A stretch of 24,939 nt of DNA from a virus, in IMG/VR virus record IMGVR_UViG_3300045051_000279, positions 1 through 24,939 of that record. One strand, written 5' to 3'. Numbering within the stretch: position 1 is the stretch's first letter; each line of letters starts with the position of its first letter. The notes under the pieces were generated by a model. That model was not told the origin of the DNA. It made no database searches and worked only from the letters and a program-made list of their open reading frames with translations. Positions 325-14,497 of the stretch are shown here, piece by piece. A program made the translations under genes and the position numbers.

Positions 325-498
325 TTACATGCCTTTTTGCATTTTGGCAACGCCACCACGCAAGAAAATGAAGCCGGCACCATCAAGGATCATCTGCTTG
401 TCGCCTTGGATCAAGCCAAGCACGATCATCAGCCCGCCCACAATATAGGTTTTTTTACCGCTTAGGTACTCAACCGCGGAAGTAATGAAATTCCACAT
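325..498 (-). CDS. Holin-like small membrane protein
   Basis: A 57-residue ORF starts at ATG 498 and stops at TAA 325-327. It begins MWNFITSAVEYLSGKKTY, then has a hydrophobic stretch (IVGGLMIVLGLIQG, about residues 19-32), a short polar turn (DKQM) and a second weakly hydrophobic stretch (ILDGAGFIFLRGG) before a basic C-terminus. Small phage proteins with this GKKTY-then-membrane layout are common beside endolysins and are usually called holins or holin-like. Its position two genes after the M23 peptidase, followed by a terminator, supports a lysis role. The leader is A-rich without a Shine-Dalgarno motif. The class is not certain, because the second hydrophobic stretch is short for a membrane span. 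Confidence 0.65.
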   Translation of the reverse strand: MWNFITSAVEYLSGKKTYIVGGLMIVLGLIQGDKQMILDGAGFIFLRGGVAKMQKGM

Positions 499-508
499 AG
501 TTTTGCTT

Positions 509-838
509 TTATAATTTATTATTATTTTTGCGTTCCTCTAAAATTGTAAGGATTTTTGTTTGCACATCTGACATTCGGCGCATCTCATTTTCAATATGCT
601 TAATGTCATTTTCCTTGATAAGCAACATGCTCGCATCAAGGCTTTTTAGGCTCTCTTTAATCTCATTGATAACATAATTGATTTTATCGTGTTTCAGCGG
701 GCAAGAAGTTTCAATTTTATCAATTCGTGCTGCTGCCTTAATGTCGGGGTCGGTGAAAGTCTTATATATGGCAAAGATTATGCCACCCAAAGTTGCTATT
801 GAAATGATCAATTGTAAGTTGTCCATGATTATATCCAT
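509..838 (-). CDS. Membrane-anchored coiled-coil protein of the lysis region
   Basis: This is a 109-residue protein with one N-terminal hydrophobic segment (about residues 9-26, including LIISIATLGGIIFAIYKTF), a single cysteine (SCPLKHD), and a long charged helical tail predicted to form a coiled coil (INEIKESLKSL through ILEERKNNNKL). An N-terminal anchor plus soluble helix between an endolysin and a holin-like gene recalls phage lysis accessory proteins of the XhlA or signal-anchor type, but I cannot assign a named family. A second ATG four codons in (826) could be the true start. The 74 bases upstream, back to the M23 stop, hold no other gene. Confidence 0.6.
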   Translation of the reverse strand: MDIIMDNLQLIISIATLGGIIFAIYKTFTDPDIKAAARIDKIETSCPLKHDKINYVINEIKESLKSLDASMLLIKENDIKHIENEMRRMSDVQTKILTILEERKNNNKL

Positions 839-912: not shown

Positions 913-1377
913 TTAGTCCTCGGCAATCACAATAAGGTTGCCCCATCCGCCATTTTTAAACCATGTGCGCTTTTCATAAACAACCACGCCATCGCAAGAA
1001 GATTTGAAAGGATAGCCAAAATCTGAATTGCCACCACCCATGCCGTTTACATCCACGCCCGGGTGAAAACCATATCCAACCCAATCAAGGAAGCCATAAC
1101 CAAAATTTCCCACATCCACTTTGCGCCCAAACATCTTTTCAAAATCAACCCCGGAAGGGTCTTTATAAAACTGATCCACTTTTGCTTTGCTCCAACCGGA
1201 AATATAATTGTACAACTGATCCACGGTTAAGCCTTCGGAAATTGAAAAATGAAGGTGGGCATAATACTGTCCGTTGCCATCTCCAACGGTTCCGATCGGG
1301 GTTACATATTTAATAACCCTTTGCCCCTTGCGCACAAAGTTTTTATCCATGTGTGCAAATAAGTGTAGCCTTTTCAT
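913..1377 (-). CDS. M23/LytM-type peptidoglycan peptidase with permuted halves (endolysin candidate)
   Basis: This 154-residue protein would cut peptide bonds in peptidoglycan during lysis or entry. All M23 zinc-site motifs are present but in reversed order. The half that normally ends the domain comes first: LFAHMDK with His9, VRKGQRV, PIGTVGDG, and AHLHFSI with the HxH pair His41/His43. A linker follows (WSKAKVDQFYKDP, about residues 62-74). The half that normally starts the domain comes last: HPGVD with His105 and Asp109, then YPF, DGVVVY and GWGNLIVIAED at the C-terminus. The break falls where canonical proteins join GN-x-VxI to YAH. There is no signal peptide, so a holin would be needed for release. 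The A-rich leader follows the previous stop by six bases. The family assignment is firm; activity of the permuted form is inferred. Confidence 0.88.
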   Translation of the reverse strand: MKRLHLFAHMDKNFVRKGQRVIKYVTPIGTVGDGNGQYYAHLHFSISEGLTVDQLYNYISGWSKAKVDQFYKDPSGVDFEKMFGRKVDVGNFGYGFLDWVGYGFHPGVDVNGMGGGNSDFGYPFKSSCDGVVVYEKRTWFKNGGWGNLIVIAED

Positions 1378-1886: not shown

Positions 1887-3062
1887 TTAAGCAGTTCTAA
1901 CCCATCTATACACAACGATATAAGGCTGCAAGTTGTTATGCGCCGCGGAAGCATTTGCTGCTGCAACTGAGGAAATATTTGCATATCCAGTTGCTGCGAC
2001 TAACTGCCCACCACTAGCAACATCCGGGGTAAGTCTATATTGCGTTCCTGTGCCATAAGCTGTTCCTCCATTATTCCACCAAACATTTGTTGAGATTACT
2101 TGTACATTATGCCCATGTCCACTATCGCTGTGTCCATGTCCTTTTTCTCCACTTTCTGATCCAGTAAGAAGGTGCGTTTTTTCTCCACCAGTTTCACCCA
2201 AAACATCAAATTCGGTTTGCCCTGCATCAATCGCCACAGTAACCCTTCCGGTTCCATGTGCTGCCCAAGTTCCAATGCCTAAAAGCGTTGCCGGGTTAGT
2301 GGAAACATTAAAACTTCGGATGGTTCCAATTGGATTATTCCAATCAGTTATAGCCAATTTCAAATTCAAAAATGAAAGCTTTTTTAAAACCCAAGCCGCC
2401 GCGCTATCAAATAAGCCAAACTCATCAGCATCAACCGGTGTAGTTTTTGCGGAAGCTGCATGCACTCCGGCAAGTCCATCCACATAATTTTTGCTTGCCG
2501 CTTGTTGGGCAAGTGTTGGATCTGCAATTTGAATTTTAAGCTTCATTTCAACGCGGGTATCTAAAATGTTTGCGTTTAATATCGAAACGGCACCACTAGC
2601 AACCGTAACATCTGCCAACCTCAAAAATGGGTTAGCCGACCCGATCGCTGCTTGGATGGTTGCATCACTTGGTGATACTGGCGATCCTGCCGGCGTTCCA
2701 TCCACGGCAATAAGCTTCAATACATTGGTAATATCTGCGTTTGGTGTGGCTCCCTTGTCAACATATAAAACAATGGCATCCTTTCGTGGGTTGCCGCTTG
2801 AATTTGAAGAAATTGCCACGCTTGCATCGGCATCCGTAAGAAATCCGGGATATGCCATATTGGCGCCGGATGCTTTCAGAAAAGCCGCACCTTGCGCAAC
2901 CTTAACACTCATTGCCGGTACTGTTTCTTGGGTAACCAAAAGCTTGCTTGCTGCCAAATCATACACGCCCGGCACGCTCACTAACTGGCTCATCATAAAA
3001 TTTACTATTTCTTCGGGGTGCTGGGTTCCCCCGGATCGCATTGTTTGAAGTTTTGCCGCCAT
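1887..3062 (-). CDS. Tail fibre / receptor-binding protein with C-terminal collar-like domain
   Basis: This 391-residue protein is probably trimeric and distal on the tail. The N-terminal ~190 residues look like a baseplate-attachment region of short beta repeats (PGVYDLAAS, VTQETVPAMSVKV, DAIVLYVDKG, ADVTVASGAV). A linker follows (SFLNLKLAITDW). The C-terminal ~150 residues begin NPIGTIRSFNVSTNP and end HNNLQPYIVVYRWVRTA, a signature of phage collar or T4 gp10/gp12 C-terminal domains, where HxH motifs bind metal within the trimer. Here the sequence GHGHSDSGHGH lies at about 308-318. It follows the other tail-tip genes. Its specific receptor is unknown. Confidence 0.8.
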   Translation of the reverse strand: MAAKLQTMRSGGTQHPEEIVNFMMSQLVSVPGVYDLAASKLLVTQETVPAMSVKVAQGAAFLKASGANMAYPGFLTDADASVAISSNSSGNPRKDAIVLYVDKGATPNADITNVLKLIAVDGTPAGSPVSPSDATIQAAIGSANPFLRLADVTVASGAVSILNANILDTRVEMKLKIQIADPTLAQQAASKNYVDGLAGVHAASAKTTPVDADEFGLFDSAAAWVLKKLSFLNLKLAITDWNNPIGTIRSFNVSTNPATLLGIGTWAAHGTGRVTVAIDAGQTEFDVLGETGGEKTHLLTGSESGEKGHGHSDSGHGHNVQVISTNVWWNNGGTAYGTGTQYRLTPDVASGGQLVAATGYANISSVAAANASAAHNNLQPYIVVYRWVRTA

Positions 3063-12139: not shown

Positions 12140-13165
12140 TTAAGAAAGTGTTTTTTCTTCTTCATCGTCTTGGTAACACATTTCAGCCACTAAAGCATCA
12201 AAGGTATATTCCGGCTTCCAACCCAATTTTTCCTTTGCCTTGCTCGGATCACCAATCAATAAATCCACTTCGGCGGGGCGGTAAAAGTCTTTGTTTATTT
12301 TTATTATAACCTTATTTGAATTTTTATCAACGCCGTATTCATCCACGCCTTCGCCGTACCATTGCAAATCAAACCCAAATATCTGTGCGCAAGTTTCCAC
12401 AAACTGCCGTACGGTGCGGGTTTCCCCTGTTGCTATCACATAATCATCCGGGGTTTCCTGTTGAAGCATAAGCCACATTGCATGCACATAATCCCGGGCA
12501 TGCCCCCAATCCCTTTTTGCATCCAAATTGCCAAGTTCCAAACATTCTTGCTTGCCATGCTTCATTTTGGCAAAAGCCTTGGTAATTTTTCGGGTTACAA
12601 AATTGGTGCCACGGTGCGGGCTTTCGTGATTAAATAAAATCCCGCAAGAAGCGTGCATGCCGTAACTTTCCCGGTAATTGATGGTTGCCCAATGCCCAAA
12701 AAGCTTTGCCACTCCATAGGGGCTTCTTGGATGAAAAGGCGTGGTTTCCTTTTGTGGTACTTCCTGCACTTTGCCAAACATCTCACTTGTTGAAGCTTGA
12801 TAAAAGCGGCACTCCGGCTTATATTTGCGGATCGCTTCCAAAAGGCGCAATACTCCCAAGGCATTTACATTGGCGGTATATTCCGGGATTTTAAAACTGG
12901 TGGCAACATGGCTTTGCGCTGCCAAATTGTAAACTTCATCCGGCATAATCTCAAAAATAATATTGTCCAAAAGGGAAGTGTCTTGTAATTCTGCAAAGTG
13001 CAATTTAATCGGCACGCTAAATTTCTTTGCTGCCTCATCAATGCTTTCGCCACTATTTGCCCGGTGCAAGCCGTGTACTTCATATCCCTTGCCATGCAAC
13101 AATTCCGCCAAATAAAAGGCATCCTGCCCGCCACATCCAGTAATCAACGCAATTTTTGTTTCCAT
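12140..13165 (-). CDS. gmd: GDP-mannose 4,6-dehydratase
   Basis: A 341-residue short-chain dehydratase that converts GDP-D-mannose to GDP-4-keto-6-deoxy-D-mannose, the precursor of GDP-fucose, GDP-rhamnose or perosamine. The Rossmann fold starts with ALITGCGGQDAFYLAEL (residues 6-22; cellular enzymes usually have GITGQDGSYL), then HGLHR, followed by the catalytic STSEMFG (125-131) and YGVAK (Tyr150, Lys154). RDWGHARDYVHAMW and ATGETRTVRQFVE are typical of the family. It ends in an acidic tail (DDEEEKTLS). No reductase or epimerase for the next step is in the window, so the host or another phage gene must complete the sugar. The length is close to the family norm of about 340-370. Confidence 0.93.
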   Translation of the reverse strand: METKIALITGCGGQDAFYLAELLHGKGYEVHGLHRANSGESIDEAAKKFSVPIKLHFAELQDTSLLDNIIFEIMPDEVYNLAAQSHVATSFKIPEYTANVNALGVLRLLEAIRKYKPECRFYQASTSEMFGKVQEVPQKETTPFHPRSPYGVAKLFGHWATINYRESYGMHASCGILFNHESPHRGTNFVTRKITKAFAKMKHGKQECLELGNLDAKRDWGHARDYVHAMWLMLQQETPDDYVIATGETRTVRQFVETCAQIFGFDLQWYGEGVDEYGVDKNSNKVIIKINKDFYRPAEVDLLIGDPSKAKEKLGWKPEYTFDALVAEMCYQDDEEEKTLS

Positions 13166-13170
13166 GTTTT

Positions 13171-13332
13171 TTATTTAAAAAATTTATTAAACCACTTTTT
13201 TACTCGATCCCTTTTTGTTTTCACCCAAAAAGCCGGGCAATTATGGGGTTGCTTTCCTTCCCTAAATTTGCGGTAGCGGGGATTAAGGCAAGTGTTTTGG
13301 CACTTGCAATCATCGCATTTATGCTTTGGCAT
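13171..13332 (-). CDS. Cysteine-rich 53-aa protein inside the sugar cassette
   Basis: This short ORF starts at ATG 13332, overlapping the glycosyltransferase end by 14 bases, and stops at TAA 13171-13173, five bases before the dehydratase start. Its 53 residues begin MPKHKCDDCKCQNTC, with cysteines at 6, 9, 11, 15 and 32, and have a basic C-terminus (KTKRDRVKKWFNKFFK). The Cys/His pattern suggests a small zinc-binding fold and the basic tail suggests nucleic-acid or membrane contact. It fills the gap between the two sugar genes almost exactly. Family not recognised. It resembles, in style only, the other tiny Cys proteins near 17 kb. Confidence 0.65.
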   Translation of the reverse strand: MPKHKCDDCKCQNTCLNPRYRKFREGKQPHNCPAFWVKTKRDRVKKWFNKFFK

Positions 13333-14497
13333 TTTCTTGCATTAAGGATTTTATAACATTTGCCACCCCAAGCGCCGTATATTGGGCTTTCCAATGCTCG
13401 GCGTGCCTTGCAAGGTTTCGCGCCCTCACTTTGCGGTATCCTGCACCCATCTTGAAAGCCTCATATTCTGCCCGCATCGCTTTGCGCACACTTGAAATAG
13501 TCGGTTGAAATTGCAAGCCAAGATCCATTCCCTTAAATTCCTTATTGTCGTATTGCGGCACTATGTATTTCCATTCAAGCGGTTGCATCAAATTACTATC
13601 AAAATATTCGCTCATTCCGGTATGATCCGGGATAATTATTGGCATACCGGTTGCCATCGCTTCAAGCGGGGTTAATCCAAATCCTTCACCTCGGGAAGGA
13701 AAAACAAAACAATCAGATCGTTGCATCAATTCGCGCAAATCATCCAAGGAATAAATCGCCTTGATAACCTCCACATTCTTGTATTCGGCAAGGTTCATGG
13801 TCTTATCAACCGTGGTTTTGAAAATAAGGCGCACATCCTCATCCTCGCCAAACTCTTGATCAAAGGCATTAAGCACAATATCCCAACCCTTGCGCCATTT
13901 GAAAGCGTCAAAATGCAAAAAAGTGAAAGGGGATTGATCGTTTCTTTCACGCTCCAAGAAATAAAACTTTTCCGGCTCATAACCCAATGGCACAACCTCG
14001 CCACGCACTCCAAATTGCGCCTCTAGCACATCCGCACAAAACTTTGAAGGCACAATGCACTTATCGGCTACTTTCCACCACTCACCCCAAAATTCGGGGT
14101 ATTTCGTGGTTTCAAACATGGAAAAGATTATGTTTTTAGGGCATTGGCTATATTGCAAGGTATTTGGCAAGTGGTAATTTAAGCAAATTTCTTGCCCCTC
14201 GTAATCATCATTTAAAAAAATACCGTATTTTTCAATGTCTTTTTTCAATAAAAGCGCGCTTGCGCTGTAACCATCATAAGCAAAAGCATTGCTTGAAATA
14301 AAATGCACATCAATAAGCCCCAATTCTTTTGCCCTCGCTTTCCTATCAATCTTTGTTTCCCTATTTTGTCTTGCAATTTCCAAGCGTTCCGCACTACTAA
14401 GCATTTTATACCCTTTGCGTTTCAACTCCCAAAATTGCTTAGCGTTGATGTTTTTTTCCTCGATTTTCCCTTGGGGATTTTTCAAATAATACTTCAT
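13319..14497 (-). CDS. Glycosyltransferase, GT-B fold (GT4-like)
   Basis: A 392-residue enzyme expected to transfer a nucleotide-sugar residue to an acceptor. The N-terminal ~60 residues are a charged helical extension (AERLEIARQNRETKIDRKARAKEL) that may bind a partner. The GT-B part includes FISSNAFAYDGYSASALL, FSMFETTKYPEFWGEWW, CIVPSKF, LGYEPEKF, FLHFDAFKWRKGWDIVLNAF, and the C-terminal donor motif CFVFPSRGEGFGLTPLEAM with the EX7E pair Glu271/Glu279. These are diagnostic of GT4-type family members. Acceptor and sugar are unknown; the adjacent dehydratase suggests a 6-deoxyhexose. It begins after a terminator and a promoter-like sequence. Confidence 0.9.
   Translation of the reverse strand: MKYYLKNPQGKIEEKNINAKQFWELKRKGYKMLSSAERLEIARQNRETKIDRKARAKELGLIDVHFISSNAFAYDGYSASALLLKKDIEKYGIFLNDDYEGQEICLNYHLPNTLQYSQCPKNIIFSMFETTKYPEFWGEWWKVADKCIVPSKFCADVLEAQFGVRGEVVPLGYEPEKFYFLERERNDQSPFTFLHFDAFKWRKGWDIVLNAFDQEFGEDEDVRLIFKTTVDKTMNLAEYKNVEVIKAIYSLDDLRELMQRSDCFVFPSRGEGFGLTPLEAMATGMPIIIPDHTGMSEYFDSNLMQPLEWKYIVPQYDNKEFKGMDLGLQFQPTISSVRKAMRAEYEAFKMGAGYRKVRARNLARHAEHWKAQYTALGVANVIKSLMQENAKA

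Follow-up and report, generated by a model that had tools for sequence, protein, structure and literature searches.

A probable natural circular permutant of the M23 peptidase domain among putative lysis genes of tailed phages

Few cell-wall hydrolases have been studied as closely as M23 peptidases, whose motifs usually follow one another in the order HxxxD, GN-x-VxI strand, YAH strand, G-x-V-x-G, IG and HxH, as they did in the standard-order phage proteins that we examined. A gene of a tailed phage in which the two halves of this domain stand in the opposite order raises the question of whether it encodes a genuine circular permutant, and for what purpose a phage would carry it. The window analysed here is the whole of a 24,939-base linear IMG/VR virus record (IMGVR_UViG_3300045051_000279), whose genes, on the minus strand, encode a tailed phage (terminase, portal, minor head, major head, tape measure, distal tail and tail genes), the gene in question coming after the tail genes (Table 1). 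Two other genes of the window have the major head gene on one side and the head-tail genes on the other: 12140-13165, a GDP-mannose 4,6-dehydratase that exceeds the TIGR01472 cut-off, and 13319-14497, which is glycosyltransferase-like. The gene starts of the window (n = 28) mostly lack a Shine-Dalgarno sequence and show instead an A-rich leader, often with AAAAC right before the ATG, which may hint at the host. Overall, we consider it probable (about 0.85), from sequence comparisons and a predicted fold, that the phage uses as its endolysin a zinc peptidase of the M23 (LytM/lysostaphin) type that has undergone natural circular permutation.

Table 1. Features of the permuted M23 gene and of its neighbours in the window
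Feature	Position	Strand	Basis or details
Probable circularly permuted M23 peptidase gene	913..1377	-	154 aa, ATG start, frame unbroken
Residues 4-48, normally C-terminal half (YAH-type His9, KGQ, IGTVG, AHLHF with His41 and His43)	1234..1368	-	Pfam M23 profile positions 46-89; alignment A4
First linker part (residues 49-74), showing homology to the standard-order phage M23 C-terminal tail (..GWSKxKVxxxYxxP)	1156..1233	-	Rotated alignment; hhalign to template 96-170
Second linker part (residues 75-104), showing homology to the standard-order N-terminal prefix (GGYxFLEW) from about residue 90 onwards	1066..1155	-	Rotated alignment; hhalign
Residues 105-154, normally N-terminal half (HPGVD with His105/Asp109, PFKSSCDGVVVYE, GWGNLIVI), ending at the hairpin; M23-matching part 105-151	916..1065	-	
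Tail protein, same late gene block, upstream of the lysin	1887..3062	-	PHROG tail families
Putative lysis-cassette candidate downstream of the lysin; 109-aa protein with a single N-terminal hydrophobic stretch	509..838	-	Sequence
Putative holin candidate downstream of the lysin; 57-aa protein with two hydrophobic stretches	325..498	-	Sequence

All five metal-binding and catalytic residues of M23 are present in the window protein (H9, H41, H43, H105 and D109). The HxxxD, YAH-type His and HxH motifs that characterise PF01551 are therefore all there, but their linear order is YAH, HxH, HxxxD and not the usual one, so that the protein is to be regarded as a permuted variant related to M23 rather than as an ordinary member of the family. 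The reading frame is unbroken, as had been stated from the sequence alone in the initial annotation, and the upstream gene stops 6 nt before the ATG, which leaves no second N-terminal half ahead of the gene. No further M23 open reading frame was seen in the window or in the examined stretches of its relatives, and NCBIfam has no family for the 154-aa protein.

The swapped order was reflected in the profile comparisons. In its native order the protein scored 37.0 bits against the Pfam M23 profile (PF01551) in two stretches, the best of which joined residues 4-48 to profile positions 46-89 of 96, while swapping the halves in silico gave 50.2 bits in a single stretch covering positions 2-89 of 96; the curated cut-off of 28.7 bits was exceeded in both orders. 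The score against PHROG 7767 likewise rose from 29.7 bits (native) to 42.6 bits (swapped). When every rotation of each permuted protein was scored against a profile built from nine standard-order phage M23 proteins, a gain of 8-21 bits was recorded for all complete permuted proteins (10/10), the best cut always falling inside the linker (residues 72-94), as against a gain of 3 bits at most for the nine standard-order controls, each scored with a leave-one-out profile; this difference excludes chance. Using hhalign, the native family matched the standard-order profile in two separate stretches without overlap, the order of which was inverted: template 27-90 corresponded to columns 90-151, and template 96-170 to columns 4-79 (E 8e-18 and 1e-16 for the two matches). 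The rotated family matched the standard-order phage M23 profile once, over 136 columns (E 1.6e-34). With tblastn, the window protein in native order found no match in 50,697 phage records, and two of its relatives (L016 and L010), used as queries, returned standard-order enzymes as half-length matches. They also returned a tail protein of a Vibrio jumbo phage, in a match extending over 90% of the query, and inspection showed that its halves too stand in the standard order.

AlphaFold2, run on nine native-order sequences, predicted a confident fold (pLDDT 88.2, pTM 0.87), whose strands correspond, in rotated order, to those of a model of the standard-order enzyme L020, the latter being of low confidence (pLDDT 60). 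Structure searches with the permuted model (PDB, BFVD, VIA) returned no full-length M23 match, Foldseek and VIA needing the same chain order. The matches were all weak and mostly barrel-sandwich-hybrid-like, among them lipoyl-type domains and NusG domain 2 (58 residues, Z 5.0), and residues 72-154 matched one LytM domain weakly (Z 2.2). In contrast, the poorer L020 model matched LytM, lysostaphin and many other M23 structures, a difference that a permuted topology would predict and that is not in itself proof of it. As the barrel-sandwich-hybrid-like matches were aligned over a range spanning residues 1-154, the permuted model suggests that both halves sit in one domain.

The same swapped order recurs in 10 other distinct proteins, of which nine are complete and one is cut by the contig end, encoded by 11 other IMG/VR contigs (L001, L002, L005, L006, L013/L014, L010, L016, L018 and L027, plus L079, the one cut at the contig end), and in a contig (DNVQ01000031.1) of a metagenome-assembled genome (MAG) of Moraniibacteriota (Patescibacteria), whose protein is identical to that of L010. 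Over aligned columns, the identity of these relatives to the window protein lies between 39-40% and 82%, that of L010 being 35% by tblastn. H9, H41, H43, H105 and D109 are invariant in 9/9 sequences of alignment A4, as are their L016 equivalents (H7, H38, H40, H97 and D101) in alignment A6, which adds L027, and dN/dS was about 0.11-0.14, for pairs with unsaturated dS only. Compilation of the reversed hhalign matches, the gain on rotation, the rise in Pfam score and this conservation bears out the initial proposal of a circular permutation of M23. In trees, the permuted proteins formed a single clade (bootstrap 98/97 with 19 rows and 96/95 with 21 rows), the sampling being biased in that the standard-order relatives had been fished with patterns from the permuted family; with that caveat, a single origin of the permuted clade is the simplest reading of the sequences. 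With the permuted profile, 212 of the 380 genomes searched in the phylum to which the Moraniibacteriota MAG belongs gave a match, and among the matches listed nothing extended past profile position 92, the MAG itself excepted; such first-part-only matches fit ordinary M23 proteins. L016 (3995-4837) and L027 (5001-5828) share a nearly identical C-terminal module, made of a coiled coil and a hydrophobic hairpin, while their permuted M23 domains are only about 40% identical, which suggests that whole permuted domains were swapped at the domain border.

How the permutation might have arisen can be read from the linker. In the standard-order L020, the core is preceded by the prefix GLDWLEYYSKHDVYHPGVD and followed by the tail YPTGWSKDKVQEYYFNP. 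The linker of the window protein runs from a tail-like segment (GWSKAKVDQFYKDP, to be compared with GWSKDKVQEYYFNP in L020) through some 18 residues to the prefix GYGFLDWVGYGFHPGVD, its second part being the standard N-terminal prefix (GYGFLDW...HPGVD). The new termini sit in the hairpin that connects the GN-x-VxI strand to the YAH strand. The rotated end-to-end alignment, tail and prefix included, accordingly shows what defines a circular permutation, namely old termini joined, new termini in a loop and the same residues retained, and it upholds both the cut and the likeness of the linker to a standard C-terminal tail that the initial annotation had proposed. Old ends joined and new ends in a hairpin are the pattern expected from duplication followed by truncation; a standard M23 gene would have been duplicated in tandem and its outer halves lost, most likely once. 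As no tandem-duplicated M23 intermediate was seen among the phage-record matches or the relatives examined, this route is one that we infer.

With regard to function, the two halves are expected to reunite in a single M23 domain, with His105, Asp109 and His43 as zinc ligands and His41 and His9 assisting catalysis, and the putative enzyme would cut peptide bonds of the host cell wall once a holin opens the membrane. Of the two small proteins encoded downstream in the window, the 109-aa one reached no family above cut-off and the 57-aa one had no match in family searches. The surroundings in the relatives are as follows: (i) in L010, a PF05105 holin gene precedes the permuted lysin and a small hydrophobic protein follows it, (ii) in L005, a 63-aa hydrophobic gene lies downstream, (iii) in L006, the permuted domain is fused to a second, C-terminal one with matches to PHROG families of tape-measure proteins and endolysins, and (iv) in L016 and L027, it is fused to a coiled coil and a hydrophobic C-terminus. 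The holin, the small hydrophobic neighbours and the fused modules make endolysin the best reading, with which the place of the window gene behind the tail genes also agrees. Small secreted-looking proteins, judged by eye to be perhaps 3D-domain like, are also encoded near the permuted lysin in L005 (8933-9508) and L006 (11574-12095).

The alternative that survives best, though it is unlikely, is that of a virion-associated lysin used for entry and not for exit, to which the position of the window gene after the tail genes and the resemblance of the fused domain of L006 to part of PHROG tape-measure proteins would lend themselves; the stand-alone proteins of 153-155 aa carry no tail domain, however, and the adjoining genes, the holin in L010 and the small hydrophobic genes in others, speak for lysis from within. 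It is less likely still that the permuted fold has changed its job, the new ends having altered the substrate groove or the chemistry. Permuted NlpC/P60 proteins, which act on lipids, offer a precedent for such a change (PMC12994826, PMC6403190), but the permuted M23 proteins retain all metal and catalytic residues, and their fusion and proximity to lysis modules fit cell-wall hydrolysis. Although degenerate M23 domains are known (review PMC9662197), an inactive or regulatory, EnvC-like relative is hardly to be expected where ligand and catalytic residues are invariant in nine diverse members. Finally, repeats can be joined in short-read metagenome contigs, but an assembly chimera of two incomplete, wrongly joined M23 copies, which had been named as an outcome that would refute the permutation, is refuted by the independent recurrence of the order in different data sets and in a MAG contig at 35-82% identity, with invariant catalytic residues, purifying selection and differing downstream fusions.

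Among known systems, the closest to the probable permuted endolysin are standard-order phage M23 enzymes from IMG/VR (L020, L019, L022, L023, L024, L093 and L098), with about 30-50% identity in matched segments. These enzymes share the prefix GGYxFLEW..HPGVDLN and the tail GWSKxxVxxxYxxP with the permuted family and differ from it in the normal order of their halves, so that prefix and tail lie on either side of the core and do not make up a linker inside the protein. The M23 enzymes of Thermus and Meiothermus phages (Lalka27b, Riverbug, MMP7; LysTt72, PDB 8s3m) have the M23 core in common with the permutant, in standard order, and were matched at full length with the swapped query only. LytM, lysostaphin, EnpA and ShyA (PF01551) have the same HxxxD, YAH and HxH motifs but, unlike the permutant, the N-terminal half first. 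Circular permutation is known from another superfamily of peptidoglycan hydrolases, NlpC/P60 (PMC6403190, PMC12994826), where the permuted group (YaeF-like, LRAT-like) has an unrelated cysteine-enzyme fold and its permuted members act on lipids. No described permuted M23, LytM or lysostaphin was found in open-access full text, to which the search was confined, in agreement with the earlier statement that no such case was known; no mention of permutation is made in the M23 review PMC9662197.

The MAG contig (L054, 11558-14938) carries a tyrosine integrase, the permuted lysin and a PF05105 holin beside cellular genes, namely a radical-SAM RNA-methylase-like gene and a cysteine-desulfurase-like aminotransferase. 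Because integrase and lysis genes adjoin cellular genes, this phage appears, provided that the binning is correct, to be integrated as a provirus in a Moraniibacteriota bacterium; no tRNA was found near the integrase. Patescibacteria are the ultra-small CPR bacteria, and to our knowledge little is known of their phages. It is conceivable, albeit improbable, that the permuted proteins constitute an M23 lineage of their own in phages of Patescibacteria (CPR), in which relocating the termini to the central hairpin either altered specificity or regulation or made it possible to attach, directly at the C-terminus, membrane anchors and second hydrolases fitted to such hosts.

A conserved natural permutant would mean that the M23 fold tolerates new ends in its central hairpin, with the old ends joined by a linker, and that the moved termini change the sites at which other modules can be attached. 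Annotation that depends on chain order, such as profile coverage or Foldseek, half-annotates or misses genes of this kind. The member apparently integrated in Moraniibacteriota would also make a lysis enzyme of CPR-bacteria phages accessible to testing.
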